Source: Candidatus Bathyarchaeota archaeon (GTDB lineage: Archaea > Thermoproteota > Bathyarchaeia > 40CM-2-53-6 > FEN-987). Taken from it: a stretch of DNA of 7,030 nt. A program made the position numbers and the translations under genes. Below, in pieces: positions 1-7,030 of the stretch; positions within the stretch are counted from its first letter, which is position 1, and each line of letters starts with the position of its first letter. The notes below the pieces were generated by a model that worked only from the letters and a program-made list of their open reading frames with translations, was not told where the DNA came from and ran no database searches. The stretch spans positions 1 to 7,030 of the forward strand of contig JAHFFU010000050.1 in the NCBI GenBank assembly GCA_023247835.1, written 5' to 3'.

Positions 1-469
1 AGCCTCCATTATGGTTGGTAGTCGCAACCGGGGCCGTCACATCGAAAATAGAAGTGTTGTCTTGTCCCGTGTTTCCAACTGCGGTCCACCTGGTAATTCT
101 GCCATGTTTGTAAGTGCCGTTCCAATAAGTCCAGTACACGTAGACGTAATGATTCACGTCGAAATGCGGGTCCAACGCAATTCCAAGAAGACCCTGCTCT
201 GTCCCTCCAACACCTGGCGGGAGTGGCCCCATGGTCGCGAATGGCGTTTCGAGGATTGTTCTATCGCTCAGGATGACCTTGATATTACCTGTGTCCTTCT
301 CATTGTAGAAGATACGCCCATCATTTACGAATGCGAACGCAACTGGAAATTGTAGGCCTGCATAAACCGCTTCAATGGATGAAGGTGCCCGAAACCTAAC
401 CACGGCAAAGCTCAGCATGAAAAGGCTGAATAGAACCGCAACAACAAGGATTCTAGGGAACCTCGACAT
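1..469 (-). CDS. PQQ-dependent aldose/sorbosone dehydrogenase, N-terminal part (runs off left edge)
   Basis: This is the first 156 codons of a glucose/sorbosone dehydrogenase (GSDH) family protein, a six-bladed beta-propeller that oxidises aldoses with PQQ outside the cytoplasmic membrane. Residues 7-24 are a hydrophobic export signal or anchor after a basic start (MSRFPR). Residues 38-54 match the opening strand of the family (GLQFPVAFAF, then DGRIFYNE). GVGGTEQGLLGIALDP at 86-101, followed by the YVYVYWTY strand, is the family signature. The visible part ends at NHNGG (152-156), where soluble glucose dehydrogenases carry their catalytic histidine, so His153 is the likely base. The C-terminal blades lie outside the window. 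The ATG at 469 is chosen because it precedes the signal peptide and sits about 29 bases from a TATA-like box. The gene is divergent from the small secreted protein to its right. Family assignment is firm; the sugar substrate and cofactor cannot be told from this part. Confidence 0.88.
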   Translation of the reverse strand, partial: MSRFPRILVVAVLFSLFMLSFAVVRFRAPSSIEAVYAGLQFPVAFAFVNDGRIFYNEKDTGNIKVILSDRTILETPFATMGPLPPGVGGTEQGLLGIALDPHFDVNHYVYVYWTYWNGTYKHGRITRWTAVGNTGQDNTSIFDVTAPVATTNHNGG

Positions 470-494
470 TCCAACATTTCCTACGGCCGTGGAC

Positions 495-502
495 TACTTA
501 AG
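495..502 (-). promoter_or_regulatory. Possible TATA box of the sugar dehydrogenase gene
   Basis: The minus strand reads CTTAAGTA here, centred about 29 bases upstream of the ATG at 469. An archaeal TATA box in this place would start transcription at or just before the ATG. The match to a TATA consensus is only moderate. Confidence 0.35.
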
Positions 503-535
503 TGCTGACTGAGTGTAAAGACAAGTGAGGTGTGG

Positions 536-549
536 CCGAAATATTTCGG
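536..549. promoter_or_regulatory. Perfect 14-bp palindrome, candidate operator
   Basis: CCGAAATATTTCGG is a perfect 7+7 inverted repeat in the gap between the divergent dehydrogenase and secreted-protein genes. It lies about 34 bases upstream of the dehydrogenase TATA-like box and about 88 bases upstream of the box for the rightward gene. Its size and symmetry suit a dimeric regulator. No binding family can be named from the sequence. Confidence 0.4.
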
Positions 550-636
550 AAGGGCGCTCTCGGCCGCGTTGCTGCTATTTAACTTCCCTCGCATTCGACG
601 TACGTACCTTACGCGCAGGTGTCGTGAGTACAAAAG

Positions 637-644
637 TATTATTA
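637..644 (+). promoter_or_regulatory. TATA-like box of the small secreted protein gene
   Basis: TATTATTA follows an A-rich stretch (CAAAAG). Transcription would begin about 25 bases downstream, near 664-668. That makes the GTG at 666 a possible leaderless start, or gives a leader of about 25 bases to the ATG codons at 690 and 693. Confidence 0.45.
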
Positions 645-665
645 TCATGAAGCATTTTCTGTTAA

Positions 666-1280
666 GTGGTAGATTCTAACCAGCGTGAAATGATGAGCAA
701 AGTCCATGGTCGAAGGACCAGGATAATGATGCTAGCCGCGGCCATAATGCTCGTTAGCTTGGCATCTATCAGCCTCCGCTATGTTCTCGCCCCACCTCCA
801 TCGACCAACGCCCCCATGCCCTTGTCTCAATACGGCGTGGTGAGGGTCTACGCCAGCATACAATTCACGGGAAATGCGAAAATCAAAATAACTAGCCAAG
901 GATCCACTCCCTTCTTCGTTTCACGGTTGACACTGTTTCTGAATAGGCCGGCTGACTTTGACATACTTCTAGACACTATCAACGTCGATGGGACAGGTTC
1001 GATTCAGGTCTCCGGGTTCTTGGGGTCGTCTAAAGTTGTGGTTGTTCCGGCGGGTTTGCTGGTCGGAGACGTCTTGGCCTCTATGCCAAACTACTTGAAC
1101 TTTCTGCTCGTGAAGGACCCTATGGGTAATGACGCAATCGTGGCGAACGGCGGAGACGATAGCGGCGTAATCGTGGGGGTACGTTTCTTGTCAGGGGCTT
1201 ACGGTGGTGGCACAACAATGTCAGCCATAGCCACAATTGTCGCGCCCACAAACGCCACCGTAACCATGACCATGAGTTGA
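666..1280 (+). CDS. Small membrane-anchored or secreted protein of unknown function
   Basis: I do not recognise the family. The product has a basic N-terminus (GRRTR at 15-19) followed by a hydrophobic helix (about 20-37), typical of a signal peptide or single anchor. A proline-rich linker (APPPSTNAPMP) leads into an extracellular domain of about 150 residues. This domain is rich in short Val/Ile/Ser/Thr strands, has almost no charged helices, and ends in a Thr-rich tail with an NAT glycosylation sequon. It has no cysteines, so it is probably a beta-sandwich or surface protein. The GTG at 666 matches the predicted transcription start. ATG codons at 690 and 693 are equally reasonable, and 693 has GTGA five bases upstream. 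The gene is divergent from the sugar dehydrogenase and may share regulation with it. That it is a real gene is likely from its length, codon use and export signal. Confidence 0.75.
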   Translation: MVDSNQREMMSKVHGRRTRIMMLAAAIMLVSLASISLRYVLAPPPSTNAPMPLSQYGVVRVYASIQFTGNAKIKITSQGSTPFFVSRLTLFLNRPADFDILLDTINVDGTGSIQVSGFLGSSKVVVVPAGLLVGDVLASMPNYLNFLLVKDPMGNDAIVANGGDDSGVIVGVRFLSGAYGGGTTMSAIATIVAPTNATVTMTMS

Positions 1281-1368
1281 CGGAAACAAAAGTGCTGTAA
1301 CCGGAATAGCGTTAAAGCGCTTGAGACTTGCCTCACCTCCGCGTGCCACTTACCCTGTACCTGCATAG

Positions 1369-1387
1369 CCGACCGGTGTCCGACCGG
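1369..1387. repeat. Direct repeat CCGACCGG, 11-bp phased, upstream of a TATA box
   Basis: CCGACCGG occurs at 1369-1376 and again at 1380-1387, so the copies are one helical turn apart. The pair ends about 21 bases before the TATA box at 1409, where archaeal activators and TFB-recruiting factors often bind. A role as an activator site for the membrane protein gene is inference. Confidence 0.4.
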
Positions 1388-1408
1388 CCAACAACTGAAA
1401 ACTTCTCA

Positions 1409-1417
1409 TTATATATT
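1409..1417 (+). promoter_or_regulatory. TATA box of the eight-helix membrane protein gene
   Basis: TTATATATT is the best TATA match in the window. Transcription would start near 1438-1441. This gives either a leaderless TTG start at 1441 or a leader of about 28 bases, without an obvious ribosome binding site, to the ATG at 1468. Confidence 0.6.
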
Positions 1418-1467
1418 GAAAGTAGCGATGTTCCCCAAGATTGGTCAACGCCACCGAGTATCCAACT

Positions 1468-2292
1468 ATGATCAAACTGCTCTCTGCTGCAATGCGGCGA
1501 TTACTTCTGCTTGCCAGTGTCCTCGTTTTTCTTGCTGGCTTCCAGCTATTCATTCTCACCGAGTATACCGATTCATACTTCGCGTGGACTATTCAACCTC
1601 CATTTACAGCGGCTTTTCTTGGTGCAGGTTATTTCTCAAGTTTCATGTTAGAGTTCCTTGCTTCGCGGGAAAAGGATTGGGCCAAAGCACGAATCGCGGT
1701 GCCTGCAATCTTCGTGTTCACAACCCTCACATTGGTTGCAACGATCTTGCATGCGGACCGATTCCATTTCAGTAGCCCGAATATGTTCGCACGTTCCGCC
1801 GCCTGGTTCTGGTTAGCGATTTACAGCCTTGTCCCGCCCGCCATGCTCGGAATTTGGATTCGGCAACAACGCATGCCAGGCGAAGATCCGAATCGCACTC
1901 CTCTTCCATCCTTGATTCGAATTGTTCTGGCGGCCCAGTCGATTCTGATGCTTGCTCTGGGGATTGGTTTGTTTCTTGCGCCGAACCCAATCGCATCCTA
2001 CTGGCCTTGGAAGCTCACAGCTCTGACTAGTCGGGCGGTAGGTGCATGGTTGCTTGGGATTGGTGTTTTTGCATTCCACGCGGTCGCGGAGAATGACCGT
2101 CTCCGAATCAAGGCGGGTTTAGCAAGTTACTTCGCTTTGGGCCTGCTTCAATTAATCGCGTTATTGAGGTATCCTACCAACATTGACTGGGCAAGGCCAG
2201 CAGCGTGGTATTACGTCACGTTCGTAATCAGCGTACTTTTCATCGGGCTGTACGCTCTCCCGAATTTGACTCGACGGAGTAAGTCGAACTGA
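1468..2292 (+). CDS. Eight-helix integral membrane protein of unknown function
   Basis: The 274-residue product is almost entirely hydrophobic. Probable membrane helices (residues counted from the ATG at 1468) are near 10-30, 42-65, 75-97, 108-130, 150-172, 186-204, 213-232 and 243-263. The first loop holds TDSYFAWTI followed by PPFTAAFLGAGY at the start of helix 2. I recall this pattern from uncharacterised membrane proteins of Actinobacteria and Chloroflexi, which would fit transfer from bacteria, but I could not verify it. No catalytic or transport motif is visible, and charged residues sit mostly in loops. A TTG at 1441 would add nine residues and coincides with the predicted transcription start. 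ATG 1468 is preferred as the standard codon, and ATG 1492 is a third option. The gene stands alone and is convergent with the decayed peptidase gene. Confidence 0.75.
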   Translation: MIKLLSAAMRRLLLLASVLVFLAGFQLFILTEYTDSYFAWTIQPPFTAAFLGAGYFSSFMLEFLASREKDWAKARIAVPAIFVFTTLTLVATILHADRFHFSSPNMFARSAAWFWLAIYSLVPPAMLGIWIRQQRMPGEDPNRTPLPSLIRIVLAAQSILMLALGIGLFLAPNPIASYWPWKLTALTSRAVGAWLLGIGVFAFHAVAENDRLRIKAGLASYFALGLLQLIALLRYPTNIDWARPAAWYYVTFVISVLFIGLYALPNLTRRSKSN

Positions 2293-2369
2293 CATACCAA
2301 GTTAACACCTGACGCCTGGCCCTTTGCCCGGTTAGGTCCTTGGCGTAAGCGAGTGGGGCATTTCATACG

Positions 2370-2388
2370 AAGGCACGGAAGATGCCTT
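2370..2388. repeat. Short hairpin in convergent intergenic region
   Basis: AAGGCA at 2370-2375 pairs perfectly with TGCCTT at 2383-2388 around a seven-base loop. It lies between the end of the membrane protein gene and the 3' end of the decayed peptidase gene. It could mark a 3' end, but no T-run follows. I see nothing else in 2293-2405 except the sequence GGTTAGGTC, which occurs at 2330 and again at 2409. Confidence 0.3.
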
Positions 2389-2405
2389 GTACCGCTGAAC
2401 CTTGT

Positions 2406-2715
2406 TTAGGTTAGGTCGCTCAGGAAGGAACTGGCTGGTGTTCCTAGGCCGGTCACGTAGTCCTATCCTGACGTCGTCTGCAAGCTGAGCGTCTGGTCCG
2501 TCGTCCGCAGCCTGTAAGTCAAACTAGCGGTCGCATCCACGCCGTTGACCTGGTTTGTCCGAACAAACGCGATAGTGGATGCTGGGCTCACGATGTCTTT
2601 GAAGGCCGGAGCTTAGGCCGTAGAGGACCGGGTTCGCGAAACCATGTGGGCTACCGTGGACCTGGTCGACCAGCGCCATGAGCTAGTTCTTCCCTCCTTA
2701 GGCTGATCCACCATC
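2406..2715 (-). pseudogene. Decayed C-terminal end of a sedolisin-type (S53) serine peptidase
   Basis: Read on the minus strand, this stretch gives a degenerate but recognisable S53 C-terminus. From 2712 it reads GGSA, a relic of the GGTSA catalytic-serine motif with the Thr codon lost. Stops follow at 2700-2698 (TAA) and 2685-2683 (TAG). Then come LMALVDQ and GFANPVLYGLSSG, equivalent to the usual helix and the VNPALYxLA motif. Near 2603 the frame shifts by one base and the sequence continues as FKDIVSP, then VNGVDAT, LTYRLRT and TLSLQTTSG. A TAG at 2465-2463 replaces an expected aromatic codon, and DYVTGLGTP, FLSDL and a final TAA at 2406 follow. The DI and GxD..VTGLG elements are those that hold the structural calcium in S53 enzymes. 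The signal peptide, pro-domain and the Glu/Asp catalytic region are absent, because homology ends where the vapBC promoter starts. S53 enzymes are secreted and acid-active, so the lineage may be acid-adapted. Confidence 0.82.
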
Positions 2716-2719
2716 ACCC

Positions 2720-2728
2720 ATTTATGTT
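2720..2728 (+). promoter_or_regulatory. TATA box of the vapBC pair, predicting a leaderless antitoxin mRNA
   Basis: ATTTATGTT is centred about 26 bases before the ATG at 2750, the distance expected if transcription starts on that ATG. This supports 2750 rather than the upstream ATG at 2732 as the real start. The box lies directly against the end of the S53 relic. Confidence 0.55.
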
Positions 2729-2749
2729 ACATTGCATAAGACATGGTGT

Positions 2750-2971
2750 ATGACAAATACAATTACTATCAGGCTTTCAGAAACGGAAAGGCAGGAACTC
2801 CAGAAGCGCGGAAGGCTCTCAGCTGTCGTAAGGGAAGCCATTCGCCTATACCTGAGGGCTGAGAACTCAAAGCGAGTCATATCACGGCTAAAGCAAATGC
2901 AGAGTAAGACCACACTCCGCACCTCCATCGATCAGGACCTACGACTTATTCGGGCTGACCGCGAACGATGA
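2750..2971 (+). CDS. vapB: VapB-type ribbon-helix-helix antitoxin
   Basis: This 73-residue protein has the ribbon-helix-helix (CopG/MetJ-like) layout. A beta strand (TITIRLS, residues 4-10) is followed by helix one (ETERQELQKRG) and helix two (LSAVVREAIRLYLR), then a basic C-terminal tail (39-73) that would wrap the toxin. Such antitoxins dimerise, bind their own promoter through the strand and neutralise the partner PIN nuclease. The start at 2750 fits both the strand position and the TATA box. An ATG at 2732 would add six residues with poor family character (MHKTWC). The stop overlaps the toxin start as ATGA, so the two are co-translated. Autoregulation through the promoter at 2720 is expected from the family but not shown here. 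The symbol marks the role only; the subtype is not determined. Confidence 0.85.
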   Translation: MTNTITIRLSETERQELQKRGRLSAVVREAIRLYLRAENSKRVISRLKQMQSKTTLRTSIDQDLRLIRADRER

Positions 2972-3345
2972 AGGTGGCTGACAGCAGCTACCTCACTGCG
3001 GGCCTTCTGAGAGACGCCTCGTTACTGGAAAATGAAAAATTTGTCGCCCCAGACCTAGCTCTATACGAGGTTGTGAACGCTCTTTGGAAGCACGAGACCA
3101 TAGTCAAAGACCTAAGAGATTCCTCGGTACGCATTCGCCTTTTCTCGGAATTAATCTCAACCGAAGCTGTTCAACTGATCAGGCCGGACGGTAAACTCCT
3201 TGGTGAGACATACTCACTCTCAATCAAACATCGAGCACCAGTATACGATACCATCTTCGTTGCTTTAGCCTTAGAGTTAGGCTTAGATCTGAAAACTTTT
3301 GATTCCAGACAATCCACGATAATGTCCAAGGAAGAACGCACTTGA
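2968..3345 (+). CDS. vapC: VapC-type PIN-domain ribonuclease toxin
   Basis: The 125-residue product is a complete PIN domain, a metal-dependent endoribonuclease that acts as the toxin of a type II pair and usually cleaves tRNA or rRNA. All four acidic ligands are visible: Asp5 in MKVADSSYL, Glu34 in LYEVVNALWK, Asp94 in VYDTIFVALA and Asp112 in KTFDSRQ. Length and motif spacing are normal, and no residue is missing, so the toxin should be active. Its ATG overlaps the antitoxin TGA, which fixes the start. Only the antitoxin promoter is seen. The pair sits against a truncated peptidase gene, as is common for toxin-antitoxin modules in plastic regions. The RNA target cannot be told from the sequence. 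Confidence 0.92.
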   Translation: MKVADSSYLTAGLLRDASLLENEKFVAPDLALYEVVNALWKHETIVKDLRDSSVRIRLFSELISTEAVQLIRPDGKLLGETYSLSIKHRAPVYDTIFVALALELGLDLKTFDSRQSTIMSKEERT

Positions 3346-3370
3346 TAAGGTGTGACATTATGATCTTAAG

Positions 3371-3388
3371 AGCGAATTCGGATTCGCT
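3371..3388. repeat. Perfect 7-bp hairpin between vapC and the aspartic protease gene
   Basis: AGCGAAT, loop TCGG, ATTCGCT form a perfect stem 25 bases after the vapC stop. A second weaker pair, ATGAGT (3411-3416) with ACTCAT (3427-3432), lies just downstream. There is no T-run, so this is not a classical terminator. It could shape the vapC 3' end or be a regulator site. Confidence 0.35.
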
Positions 3389-3464
3389 GTCAACCAAAGT
3401 TATCCCGAGAATGAGTTATTCACTTTACTCATCAGTGGTCAGCAGTCATGCAAATCCATGCTCT

Positions 3465-3474
3465 GGTTAAATAG
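3465..3474 (+). promoter_or_regulatory. TATA-like box of the aspartic protease gene
   Basis: GGTTAAATAG is centred about 35 bases before the TTG at 3505. Transcription would begin near 3494-3497 and give a leader of about ten bases. That leader contains GTGAGG, a good ribosome binding site five bases before the TTG. Confidence 0.45.
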
Positions 3475-3504
3475 GTTGGTCGGCATACTCGAATGTGAGG
3501 TCCA

Positions 3505-3864
3505 TTGGGCCACACTACAGCAGCCGTCAGGCTCTACGGCGCAGACCGGTCGAAATCCAGAGAGGTGGAGCTGCTTGTCGATACTGGATCCACCTATACT
3601 TGGATCGCGCGAGCTCTCCTGGAAGACCTAGCGGTAAAACCTTCCACGTTGCGAAACTTCCGAACGATAGACGGACGAACTTTGAAACGCGAGGTGGGGG
3701 AGGTTCTGATGGAATACGCCAAGGAACAGGCAACAAGAATGGTCGTGTTCGCGGAAGCAGGGGACGCACATGTACTCGGAGTTGACGCCCTCGAAGGGCT
3801 AGGGCTGGAAGTCGATCCCACTACCAAGGAATTAAGGAAATCCGAAGCCCTACTCGCGCTGTAG
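3505..3864 (+). CDS. Retropepsin-like single-domain aspartic protease
   Basis: The 119-residue product belongs to the clan AA (retroviral-type) aspartic proteases that act as homodimers. The catalytic motif is LLVDTGSTYTWI, with Asp26-Thr27-Gly28 followed by the hydrophobic residues of the psi loop. LGVDALEGLGLEVDP at 91-105 is the conserved C-terminal element that packs behind the active site. RTIDGRTLKREVGEVLMEY (53-71) is the flap and following strand, typical of the prokaryotic group. Length is normal for a stand-alone member. It has no signal peptide or membrane helix, so it is cytoplasmic. The TTG start is supported by GTGAGG five bases upstream and by an in-frame stop just before it (TGA at 3496). 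It appears to be its own transcription unit. The natural substrate of these archaeal enzymes is unknown to me. Confidence 0.85.
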   Translation: MGHTTAAVRLYGADRSKSREVELLVDTGSTYTWIARALLEDLAVKPSTLRNFRTIDGRTLKREVGEVLMEYAKEQATRMVVFAEAGDAHVLGVDALEGLGLEVDPTTKELRKSEALLAL

Positions 3865-3898
3865 GTCAGGCAATGTGCTCGCAGGCAAGTAAGCTAGG

Positions 3899-3907
3899 CA
3901 TAAATTG
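3899..3907 (+). promoter_or_regulatory. TATA-like box of the broken DUF385 gene
   Basis: CATAAATTG lies about 38 bases before the ATG at 3941. It predicts a start near 3929 and a leader of about 12 bases. Confidence 0.4.
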
Positions 3908-3940
3908 CAACGTCATTATCTGAATTACCGGTAGCTGAGA

Positions 3941-4293
3941 ATGCCTGACAGAGAATTCTTTGATGCTTTGAACTCGTCGGTTGAGATTGAGCTATCCGTG
4001 AAGGGACGCCGATCGGGGCGAAGCACTTCTAGGCCAGTCTGGTTTGTTCTCGAAGGTGGGACATTGTATCTGCTACCCGTAGCAGGGTCGGAACGGAGTG
4101 GTACCGGAACGTGCTTGCGAACCCAGAGGTAACCCTCGCCGCTAAGGGAAGAAAATTGGCTGCTCAAGCCAATCCACTTAGCGACCCAGCAAGAATCTCT
4201 GAAGTCGTCGACCGCTTCCGCACGAAACACGGAGCGGACGATGTCAAGAAATACTATTCTGGACTCGACGCCGCAGTAGCAGTGTCGATCTGA
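3941..4293 (+). pseudogene. Deazaflavin (F420)-dependent nitroreductase-like protein (DUF385), broken by one missing base
   Basis: Two overlapping frames together give one protein of about 117 residues. The first frame (3941 to about 4093) encodes VKGRRSGRSTSRPVWFVLEGG and TLYLLPVAGSE, the family core strands. It then runs out of homology and stops at 4130-4132. From 4096 the frame used by the ATG at 4111 continues the family with EWYRNVLANPEVTLAAKG, a helical part, and DVKKYYSGLDAAVAV at the end. Between GAA (4091-4093) and GAG (4096-4098) only two bases (CG) remain where a codon is expected, so one base is missing. The site has no slippery heptamer or other recoding signal. Family members bind F420 and reduce quinones or nitro compounds, or act on unknown substrates. 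Both halves look well preserved, so a very recent mutation or a sequencing/assembly error is likelier than an old pseudogene. The gene is convergent with the nucleotidyltransferase gene, 17 bases away. Confidence 0.8.
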
Positions 4294-4310
4294 AGATAGT
4301 TATTACGAGT

Positions 4311-5030
4311 TCAGCGGTTTACGTCTTCTACGTCCTTATACCACTTGGTCTTGGGGCCCACACGGGCTCTAAGCTTCCAAGCAAGCGTTTTCGGTGCATC
4401 CTCCAAAATTGCCAGCAGCTGTTGTATCTTGCGGGAAACGTCCGCTCGGTCTTCGGCCGTTAACTCGGGATATAGGTTGAGGCGATCTTCTACTTTCTTG
4501 AGGTTAGTTGTGACCGTGTAGTAGAAGCCCCATTCGTTTGAAAGAAGTTTAGCCAAATAACCTGCGTCGATGGTTTCGGGAGATGTAGCATTGCCGACCT
4601 CATGCTCCCGCAGTAGCATTATCGTGTCGACGAAATCCTTCTCGTTTATGTGAACTATCTGCATCTTCTCGAGAAGCATATCGGAGAGGGGGATGGTCAT
4701 TTCTTCGATTTCAAGGCGGCCCGTGAAGGGTATATCATGGTTCATTTCTAACTTGTCGAAGAAAATGTCGACGTGAAGGCCATTGGATTTGTTATCCCAA
4801 ATCATCCGCTGATGCCCAAACAGAGCTGAAACCATGGGTTGATCCGAGTAGCCGAACTCTCGCATCATCTTCTCAATCATTGCTCGTTCCGAATTATAGG
4901 CCGCGAAGTCAACGTCGGAGAGTTGCCTGTGGAGTTTGGCTGTGAGAAAGTTGTATTTTGGGCAATGGTACTGGAAGGCAATCGCGCCCAGCAACCTCAA
5001 GTGCAGGCCACCCTTCGCGCCCTCTCGCAC
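4311..5030 (-). CDS. Nucleotidyltransferase-fold protein of unknown target
   Basis: The 239-residue product has the signs of a DNA polymerase beta-type nucleotidyltransferase. LRLLGAIAF (11-19) supplies the Gly of the nucleotide-binding motif, LSDVDFAAY (37-45) the two metal-binding Asp residues 39 and 41, and HVDIFFDKLEM (86-96) the third acidic residue, Asp88. Downstream are LLEKMQIVHINEKD and EWGFYYTVTTNL, which I recall from uncharacterised actinobacterial and archaeal homologues. The C-terminus is helical and basic (WKLRARVGPKTKWYKDVE). It resembles the catalytic subunit of minimal nucleotidyltransferases and AbiEii-like proteins, but no partner or antitoxin lies beside it. The GTG at 5030 has GAGGAGGG about ten bases upstream. 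KEEGPRI, read in frame just upstream, also looks like protein, so the real start may be earlier (see findings). It lies 147 bases downstream of the phosphoesterase gene on the same strand. Confidence 0.78.
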   Translation of the reverse strand: MREGAKGGLHLRLLGAIAFQYHCPKYNFLTAKLHRQLSDVDFAAYNSERAMIEKMMREFGYSDQPMVSALFGHQRMIWDNKSNGLHVDIFFDKLEMNHDIPFTGRLEIEEMTIPLSDMLLEKMQIVHINEKDFVDTIMLLREHEVGNATSPETIDAGYLAKLLSNEWGFYYTVTTNLKKVEDRLNLYPELTAEDRADVSRKIQQLLAILEDAPKTLAWKLRARVGPKTKWYKDVEDVNR

Positions 5031-5134
5031 TATTCGCGGGCCCTCCTCTTTTCATCATCGCGTCGCGTTTGCCAGTATCCTGCGCTTTTTCCAATTTGAG
5101 TGTCCTGCCGAACCCGAGAAGAATTACTTTAGGC

Positions 5135-5142
5135 TATTTGTA
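5135..5142 (-). promoter_or_regulatory. Possible TATA box of the nucleotidyltransferase gene
   Basis: The minus strand reads TACAAATA here, in the gap after the phosphoesterase stop. Transcription would start near 5113, giving a leader of about 20 bases to a TTG at 5094 or about 80 bases to the GTG at 5030. A separate promoter would explain the 147-base gap, but read-through from the phosphoesterase gene is also possible. Confidence 0.35.
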
Positions 5143-5177
5143 TTGTTCGCAAATCAAACCGAACTCGGAACAGGGAT

Positions 5178-6161
5178 CTACCCGGACGTGAACTGGTAGG
5201 CTTCCATCTTTGGCCCTTTGAGGATAACTATGACCCCTCGCAGGATTCCTTCTCCGTATTCGCTGCCAGGGTTGAAGCACATAGTTCTCCCCCACTTGTA
5301 GAAGCAGCGCGACTCGTGGATGTGGCCGTGAAGGGTTATGAGTGGTTGATACTTGTCGATTATCTTGCTTACGGCATGGCTTCCAACGGGGCCTTCAATC
5401 GGTTGGCCCGCGTGCTGGTACTTCAGATCCTTGTCCAAGTAAATCGCCAAGTCCATCCCCGTATCGTACGGCGGAACGTGAATGCAGAAAATGGCGTTAC
5501 TATAGTCTTTGACTTGCGAAACTAACTCTTCCAGCTTCACGTAGAGCTCATCCTCATCCATGTCCCTTGGGAGCTTCCAAGGGGTCATATTGGAATACCC
5601 TGAGCCAGCCATCTCGTAGCCGCAAACATCAGCAATCTTCCCCTCAACATAGAGAACATGCTCGGTGCTGATTGAACGCATGTAGTCGTCAATGTGAAAC
5701 GGGTCATCATTACCGCCCGTTACGAACATTTTGACACCGGTTTTACTGAGCCTCTTTTCAGCCATGTCGACCCATTGCTGGAGGGTTTCTAACATGAGTT
5801 TGTCGAAGACCTCGTCTATCTTCTGTTTGTTGCCAGCCATCTGATCGTATTCTTTCTGGGTTGTGTGGAAATAATAATACCCGGCCGTGCGAATTTCATC
5901 TTCAATCCGCTTCACTTCTTCCTCGGTCTTGAACGCTCTGGGCATTCCCAGGAAGTCGGTGAAGGTGGTCCCGTCCTCGCGTTTGATGAGTGGCGCTATG
6001 AATTTACCTGTAAGGTCTCCGCCTAAGATCAGGACGTCAGCCTTGTAATGCTCAACGGAGTTGAGGAATTTTGTAAAAACACGTTCAGAGGAATGGACGT
6101 CAGTTGCAAAGAAGAGCCGCACGGGCTTGTCTTGACTTTTGTCTTTACTGAACAGTGGCAT
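5178..6161 (-). CDS. Calcineurin-like metallophosphoesterase
   Basis: The product (327 residues from the ATG at 6161) has the full set of metal-ligand motifs of the calcineurin-like phosphoesterases: TDVHSSE (Asp21, His23), GGDLTG (Asp49), GGNDDP (Asn151, Asp152), CIHVPPY (His228) and HGHIHES (His280, His282), followed by NPGSEYGEG. It should therefore hold two metal ions and cleave phosphomono- or diesters in the cytoplasm. Residues of about 54-141 form a long charged, helical insert between the second and third motifs, larger than in minimal family members, which probably sets substrate choice. An in-frame TTG at 6173 would add four residues. ATG 6161 is chosen because it coincides with the transcription start predicted from the TATA box. 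It sits between an amino acid permease gene and a nucleotidyltransferase gene on the same strand. The substrate is unknown. Confidence 0.9.
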   Translation of the reverse strand: MPLFSKDKSQDKPVRLFFATDVHSSERVFTKFLNSVEHYKADVLILGGDLTGKFIAPLIKREDGTTFTDFLGMPRAFKTEEEVKRIEDEIRTAGYYYFHTTQKEYDQMAGNKQKIDEVFDKLMLETLQQWVDMAEKRLSKTGVKMFVTGGNDDPFHIDDYMRSISTEHVLYVEGKIADVCGYEMAGSGYSNMTPWKLPRDMDEDELYVKLEELVSQVKDYSNAIFCIHVPPYDTGMDLAIYLDKDLKYQHAGQPIEGPVGSHAVSKIIDKYQPLITLHGHIHESRCFYKWGRTMCFNPGSEYGEGILRGVIVILKGPKMEAYQFTSG

Positions 6162-6179
6162 ACTATGCTTCAACCGGAT

Positions 6180-6189
6180 AAATTTGTAA
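6180..6189 (-). promoter_or_regulatory. TATA box of the phosphoesterase gene, predicting a leaderless mRNA
   Basis: The minus strand reads ACAAATTTAT, centred about 24 bases before the ATG at 6161. This distance places the transcription start at the ATG and supports it over the TTG at 6173. Confidence 0.5.
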
Positions 6190-6199
6190 TAGGTTCTTT

Positions 6200-6209
6200 A
6201 AAGAAAAAG
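6200..6209 (-). terminator. Possible T-rich terminator of the permease gene
   Basis: On the minus strand the run CTTTTTCTTT begins 24 bases after the permease stop, with no strong hairpin before it. Archaeal RNA polymerase can terminate at such T-runs. It lies just upstream of the phosphoesterase promoter, which fits two separate units. Confidence 0.4.
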
Positions 6210-6232
6210 TGGAAGGGAAGTTGACGCCTAAG

Positions 6233-7030
6233 TTACATTGGTGGGACTTCCCTGTAAGCGAGGCTGAGGTCGAGCCCTTTTTTCTTCCAGTAAGCGAAGA
6301 CTATCCACCAGTAGGCGAAGAGGGCAATCAAGAGGGCGATTATGCCCCCCAATCCCCCTGAGGAGTTAATGTAGAGGTTGTCGACTGTAACCTCGTACCA
6401 AATCATGACTGTTTGTAAGCTGAGCCCGACTAGTCCACCGATCGAGATCACTGGTATTCCAGCCCAGATGTATTTGCTGGCCGGGGAAGTTCGCCACACG
6501 TCTTTCATGTGGGCTCGGAAGGGCAAAATGACTGCCGCAAGCATTGTGAACCACTGGAAGATGCTCGAAACCAAGGGGGCAGCTAACGAGTATTGGTAGT
6601 AAGAGAAAGAGAAAGAGCCGATGGTGAGAGTGAAGTTGTACAGATATCCAACTACGAGACCCATTACCAGGTACACGAAACCCACATTGACCAGCTGCCT
6701 GAATCGTCTGCCGATGCGGCCGAACCATTCTGGTAGTGCGCGGTCAAGGCTCGCGGCTAGCATGATTCTGGACCCACCCACGTAGTTGACCCAGCATTCC
6801 CACAGACCGATCGCCATCGAACCCAAACCTATGAGTAGGCCAGGTATGGGGTTCGTTCCCATCATTGCGGCGAGGTTCATGAACCAGGGGATTACTGGAA
6901 ACGCGATAAGGTAGTTGAAATAGTCGTAGCCTGCGCTTGCCAAGAAGGTCCAGCCCGCCAGGTTGACGATTTCATACCCCCAGATTATCAAGAAGATTCC
7001 GCAAACCCACAGGGAACCCAGCGTTAGCGC
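6233..7030 (-). CDS. APC-family amino acid permease, C-terminal part (runs off right edge)
   Basis: The open frame continues without a stop to the window edge, so 265 residues of the C-terminal part are seen and the start lies outside. About six membrane helices are visible, matching helices 7-12 of the APC fold. The first is at the very edge (around LWVCGIFLIIWGYEI), and others lie around GLLIGLGSMAIGLWECW, GFVYLVMGLVVGYLY, SIFQWFTMLAAVILPF, AGIPVISIGGLVGLSL and GIIALLIALFAYWWIVF. After the second comes GGSRIMLAASLDRALPEWF, the conserved cytoplasmic loop of amino acid/polyamine permeases (usually SR.....DR.LP). The tail is short and cytoplasmic. The protein would import or exchange amino acids or amines with a cation. 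The substrate-binding helices 1 and 6 are outside the window, so specificity cannot be read. TTG at 6991 is an internal codon, not the start. Confidence 0.85.
   Translation of the reverse strand, partial: ALTLGSLWVCGIFLIIWGYEIVNLAGWTFLASAGYDYFNYLIAFPVIPWFMNLAAMMGTNPIPGLLIGLGSMAIGLWECWVNYVGGSRIMLAASLDRALPEWFGRIGRRFRQLVNVGFVYLVMGLVVGYLYNFTLTIGSFSFSYYQYSLAAPLVSSIFQWFTMLAAVILPFRAHMKDVWRTSPASKYIWAGIPVISIGGLVGLSLQTVMIWYEVTVDNLYINSSGGLGGIIALLIALFAYWWIVFAYWKKKGLDLSLAYREVPPM

Follow-up and report, generated by a model that had tools for sequence, protein, structure and literature searches.

A putative truncated pseudogene of an S53 peptidase in an intergenic region of a Candidatus Bathyarchaeota contig

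Gene content of the window

We investigated an apparently empty intergenic region near the start of a contig of a Candidatus Bathyarchaeota archaeon (JAHFFU010000050.1, positions 1 to 7,030; this whole 7,030-nt stretch, as analyzed, is hereafter called the window). On the minus strand, positions 2682–2409 hold the 3' end, ~90 codons long, of a gene for an S53 (kumamolisin/sedolisin) peptidase, spread over two reading frames (Table 1). On the other side of the homology edge lie a small gene and a PIN-domain gene, which together form a probable VapBC-type pair.

Table 1. Coordinates of the S53 relic, its parts and the neighboring features in the window
Feature	Position	Strand	Basis and details
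Glucose/sorbosone dehydrogenase-like N-terminal part, cut by the end of the window	2..469	-	GSDH, E 4.5e-13
TAA stop where homologues end	2406..2408	-	last column of the profile (150 of 150) reached at 2409
S53 relic, second stretch (AFKDIV...DYVTGLGTP...)	2409..2606	-	66 codons, to the C-terminus of the family
In-frame TAG within the second stretch	2463..2465	-	translation
Frameshift joining the two stretches	2607..2610	-	frame changes in the profile alignment at codon 2606; homologues continue in the other frame
S53 relic, first stretch (LMALVDQ...GFANPVLYGLS)	2611..2682	-	24 codons; tblastn of S53 homologues and profile alignment from 2679
Sequence beyond the edge	2683..2749		no reliable S53 similarity; contains GGSA, TAA 2700, TAG 2685 and a TATA-like element
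Small gene, ribbon-helix-helix-like antitoxin by eye	2750..2971	+	ORF 2732–2971, start chosen by eye; Pfam, 0 families
PIN-domain protein	2968..3345	+	PF01850, E 5.4e-6, above the cut-off
Stand-alone retropepsin-like aspartyl protease, 119 aa	3505..3864	+	gag-asp_proteas, E 5.8e-7; Asp_protease_2, E 7.7e-7

The remainder of the window is occupied by a broken gene and a row of three genes. The halves of the plus-strand gene at 3941–4293 match single open frames of three homologues in two different frames, and its first half shows a weak match, below the cut-off, to F420H(2)-dependent quinone reductase (E 0.19); this gene is either a second pseudogene or the product of a sequencing error. On the minus strand, 4311–7030 encompasses permease-like, calcineurin-like phosphoesterase and nucleotidyltransferase-like genes, the product of 4311–5030, without a Pfam match, being presumably nucleotidyltransferase-like, with a gene start (5030–5060) that may be damaged or simply different. 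Relatives of the phosphoesterase and the nucleotidyltransferase-like gene adjoin elsewhere, as in G059 C7 and G235 C7, with three of each within 14 kb in G235 C7, and permease relatives adjoin some such pairs (G059 C2, G235 C7). The phosphoesterase weakly matches the PADLOC candidate-defense model PDC-S10 (E 2.2e-10), and the best relatives of this metallophosphoesterase are 48% identical in the G009 group (398 genomes) and 47% in the G414 group (301 genomes). An initial scan of genome contigs confirmed no relative of the metallophosphoesterase, and a second scan, using its alignment, returned distant relatives only, 46% identical at best among the best 80. Closer relatives of the phosphoesterase, at 80–87%, occur in the protein collection. 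In a quick phosphoesterase tree, the window falls in a mixed part of 42 rows (15 archaea, 5 bacteria and 22 unlabelled), and the best match of the permease among 28 genomes (35%) is from a Chloroflexi-labelled genome.

C-terminal S53 homology and its edge

The earlier note had read a succession of motifs from the S53 C-terminus on the minus strand, and three-frame translation bore out LMALVDQ, GFANPVLYGL, FKDIV, VNGVDAT and DYVTGLGTP in that order. We compared 170 distinct S53 homologues, pooled from two protein searches (the best 120 of each), with the whole window using tblastn. Both relic frames were matched by all 170 (best E 2.5e-29), the second stretch with 75.5–97.8 bits and up to 78% identity over 65 aa, and the first with a best identity of 75–76% over 21–24 aa. 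Outside the relic, the same proteins produced 46 weak matches in the window, at no more than 23.1 bits; the control, reversed S53 proteins, reached at most 24.6 bits, with 101 of the 170 showing some match at E <= 1. The frameshift-tolerant search that the note had proposed, performed with a profile built from 120 homologues with the window itself left out, gave a strong signal in both frames, scoring 196.5, whereas 60 dinucleotide shuffles averaged 15.3 and peaked at 21.2, and the family match proposed in the note is upheld by both approaches. At the DNA level, 2417–2681 is 68% identical to a full-length S53 gene (E 2e-20).

When the second stretch was used as the query against 398 translated genomes, four matched at E <= 0.01, two strongly (E 1e-22, 65% identity, inside 653-aa open frames) and two weakly. 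The full-length homologue in one of the two strongly matching genomes (646 aa), whose gene gave the 68% DNA match, contains Pro-kuma_activ (E 1.3e-31) and Peptidase_S8 (E 2e-10) and, in PDB, matched kumamolisin, tripeptidyl-peptidase 1 and sedolisin (1t1e, E 1.9e-29). The bare relic pieces matched nothing in Pfam or NCBIfam, and the second stretch matched no S53 chain in PDB; the identification of the relic rests on its homologues. With them the relic shares the S53 C-terminal region, its elements in the expected order, and the family call, a decayed S53 C-terminus, is right. A structured RNA, raised earlier as a possible better account of the conservation, found no support, as no known RNA family was matched anywhere in the window at the Rfam gathering score; tRNA content was likewise ruled out by search.

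The alignment reaches the last column of the profile at 2409, directly before the TAA at 2408–2406, so that the natural C-terminus of the peptidase is kept. By tblastn, the relic covers residues 551–642 of the 643-aa homologue P0232, and therefore ~85% of the S53 gene is missing, that is, ~550 of ~640 codons, including the prodomain and the catalytic-serine motif. Two disablements fall within the homology, according to three-frame translation and the profile alignment. The TAG at 2465 was confirmed where the note had placed it; the one-base shift that it had put near 2603 exists as a change of frame but is relocated by the profile alignment to 2607–2610. The span originally given, 2406–2715, likewise stands as an S53 relic but loses its upstream part, and is corrected to 2406–2682.

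S53 homology stops abruptly at 2682, 67 bases ahead of the probable start of the PIN-type pair, and the upstream-frame match begins at this very position in 170 of 170 S53 proteins (tblastn). When 2680–2760 was compared with the preceding segment of the S53 profile, which in full-length genes includes a GGTS motif, no excess similarity was detected (67 of 200 shuffles scored as high or higher). Base-level comparison of the sequence upstream of the edge with 10 S53 genes was null for eight; for the other two, the shuffle counts were low, 5 and 8 of 200, uncorrected, the first obtained with 48 bases only. The GGSA element and the stops TAA 2700 and TAG 2685 are present as letters, but they lie outside the homology edge, in sequence that resembles S53 no more than shuffles do; on present evidence they do not belong to the relic and do not count as evidence of decay.

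The sequence beyond the edge also contains TTTATGTT, which we take to be a TATA-like element before the next gene; such an element was observed ~15–29 bases ahead of two of the six start codons examined in the window. Overall, the signs of the host's identity lean tentatively toward an archaeon. Within 2293–2800, no sigma-70-type promoter or terminator-like site was found, and neither a repeat search at the truncation edge nor a search of viral_contigs for exact 30-base matches returned a hit. The GC content is 0.595 in the relic, 0.48–0.56 in the genes on both sides and 0.433 in the 67 bases beyond the edge. One palindrome lies inside the relic.

Loss of enzyme function and intact homologues elsewhere

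The tail yields no working peptidase and is most likely without function. The GTS motif, presumably the site of the S53 catalytic serine, is absent, and the matches of all 170 homologues start downstream of it. No Pro-kumamolisin activation domain or catalytic Glu/Asp region was found in the window by tblastn with the 170, mostly full-length, homologues, and the single open reading frame that a working S53 enzyme requires is broken by the frameshift at ~2607–2610 and the TAG at 2465.

When the relic is set against 10 S53 genes, the differences are concentrated at third codon positions, with the mean difference at positions 1 and 2 amounting to 0.39–0.46 of that at position 3, which shows that much of the relic's history passed under coding constraint. 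Among pairs without the relic, this ratio ranges from 0.07 to 0.49, with high values in the most diverged genes. In the S53 tree, the end branch of the relic measures 0.52 compared to a median of 0.092; end branches are likewise long in three S53 rows from the G414 group (1.38, 0.49 and 0.42). Relaxed selection on the relic since its coding period is suggested by these values, short of proof, because other pairs reach a ratio of 0.49 and the three G414-group branches are long. The earlier statement, which placed a secreted acid peptidase here in the past of this lineage, holds for past coding constraint but not for the lineage or genome in which that history took place. That the lineage had a functioning, secreted enzyme encoded at this locus is plausible at most, since the fragment may have arrived already broken.

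Intact copies, sought at the suggestion of the note, were found in other genomes. A C-terminal S53 query matched 8 of 121 genomes (G375 and relatives) at E <= 1e-6, and in seven of these, including G375 and G347, the query was matched over its whole length (in one case, short by a residue) inside open frames of 650–661 aa; the two strong matches of the 398-genome search are among the seven. In the G414 group, 9 of 301 genomes matched at E <= 1e-10, in open frames ranging from 110 to 976 aa, so that not all of these copies are whole. Of 23 chosen genomes, 15 carry the Pro-kumamolisin domain, and G347 and G375 are among these. In the two loci compared, those around the S53 genes of G375 and G347, no other stretch of the window matched credibly, and because only the relic stretch matched, the window and these loci have no neighborhood in common. 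The S53 tree (97 rows, 101 columns) is poorly resolved, and in it the rows nearest to the relic come from database proteins and from one G414-group genome.

Origin of the relic and comparison with known systems

We consider it highly probable (about 0.92) that 2406–2682 is a pseudogene, truncated and non-functional, derived from the gene of a secreted S53 peptidase of the Pro-kumamolisin type, judging from the sequence comparisons described above. A deletion or insertion joined at the edge would have removed most of the gene, including the signal peptide, prodomain and catalytic serine, and the leftover S53 tail would then have decayed without selection. Alternatively, the S53 gene of the organism could be intact, with the contig chimeric near 2682 and carrying indel errors. 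The sharp homology edge fits such an artefact, as does the nucleotidyltransferase-like gene, which has no match to the first 10–29 residues of four homologues; moreover, because the gene at 3941–4293 is also frameshift-split relative to its three homologues, the S53 frameshift, taken by itself, might have arisen in sequencing or assembly. An in-frame TAG, however, is atypical of indel errors; a single frame runs through each of the phosphoesterase, permease-like and, but for its start, nucleotidyltransferase-like genes; GC is similar in the genes flanking both sides; and the edge sits between genes, just ahead of a plausible promoter and gene start, and therefore fits a real junction, so that we regard an artefact as very unlikely. 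Even less credible is a functional small element under selection, be it a recoded short protein or an RNA. Its 90 codons are still recognizable, one stretch at up to 78% identity, but retained similarity is what a young relic would be expected to show, and the split across two frames, the in-frame stop, the missing start region and catalytic motif, and the lack of an Rfam match at the gathering score all argue against function.

The history of the pseudogene leaves more room for doubt. Failed horizontal transfer, in which the fragment was broken on arrival and no intact copy ever functioned at this locus in the host, is a serious, if somewhat less likely, possibility, for which the elevated GC of the relic speaks. 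In a second sample of 16 genomes, the Pro-kumamolisin domain was present in all five chosen as S53 carriers and in none of the 11 chosen for a similar metallophosphoesterase, whereas it does occur in 6 of a further 10 genomes that encode a relative of the metallophosphoesterase, and every genome compared is only distantly related (metallophosphoesterase identity of 48% at best). The free tree places the relic outside the archaeal S53 group (genomes of the group of G009, itself labelled Nitrososphaerales, or relatives, plus neighboring database proteins), but grouping it with the archaeal rows was not rejected (p-AU 0.233). A large share of prokaryotic pseudogenes apparently stems from failed transfers, according to the abstract of a published survey (PMC522871). 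More speculative, and unlikely on our estimate, is a scenario in which an acid peptidase gene, acquired by horizontal transfer, was truncated when the PIN-type pair, with its own promoter, landed in its catalytic-serine region. If so, a gained trait would have been overwritten by a toxin-antitoxin-like insertion, and the lineage would since have abandoned acidic habitats or never have become established in them. Another survey reports that S53 presence is strongly correlated with an acidophilic lifestyle (PMC6411800).

As a pseudogene, the relic is a real but ordinary gene fossil, and it illustrates that short unannotated gaps can hold gene relics readable by eye. It shows that the host or a donor lineage once met an S53 acid peptidase, and a single relic adds little more. 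Among the matches listed in a literature search of titles and abstract openings, this locus was not described. Compared with S53 peptidases (sedolisin/kumamolisin), the relic retains ~90 residues of the C-terminus, through to its TGLGTP...SFL end, but the prodomain, the body of the catalytic domain and the catalytic-serine motif are missing, and the frame is broken. In the survey of Liu et al. 2004 (PMC522871), 6,895 pseudogene candidates were reported in 64 genomes, with a background of 1–5% in most prokaryotes and archaea similar to bacteria. The relic shares with these truncated prokaryotic pseudogenes an intergenic homology with disablements, and shows no difference from them in kind.
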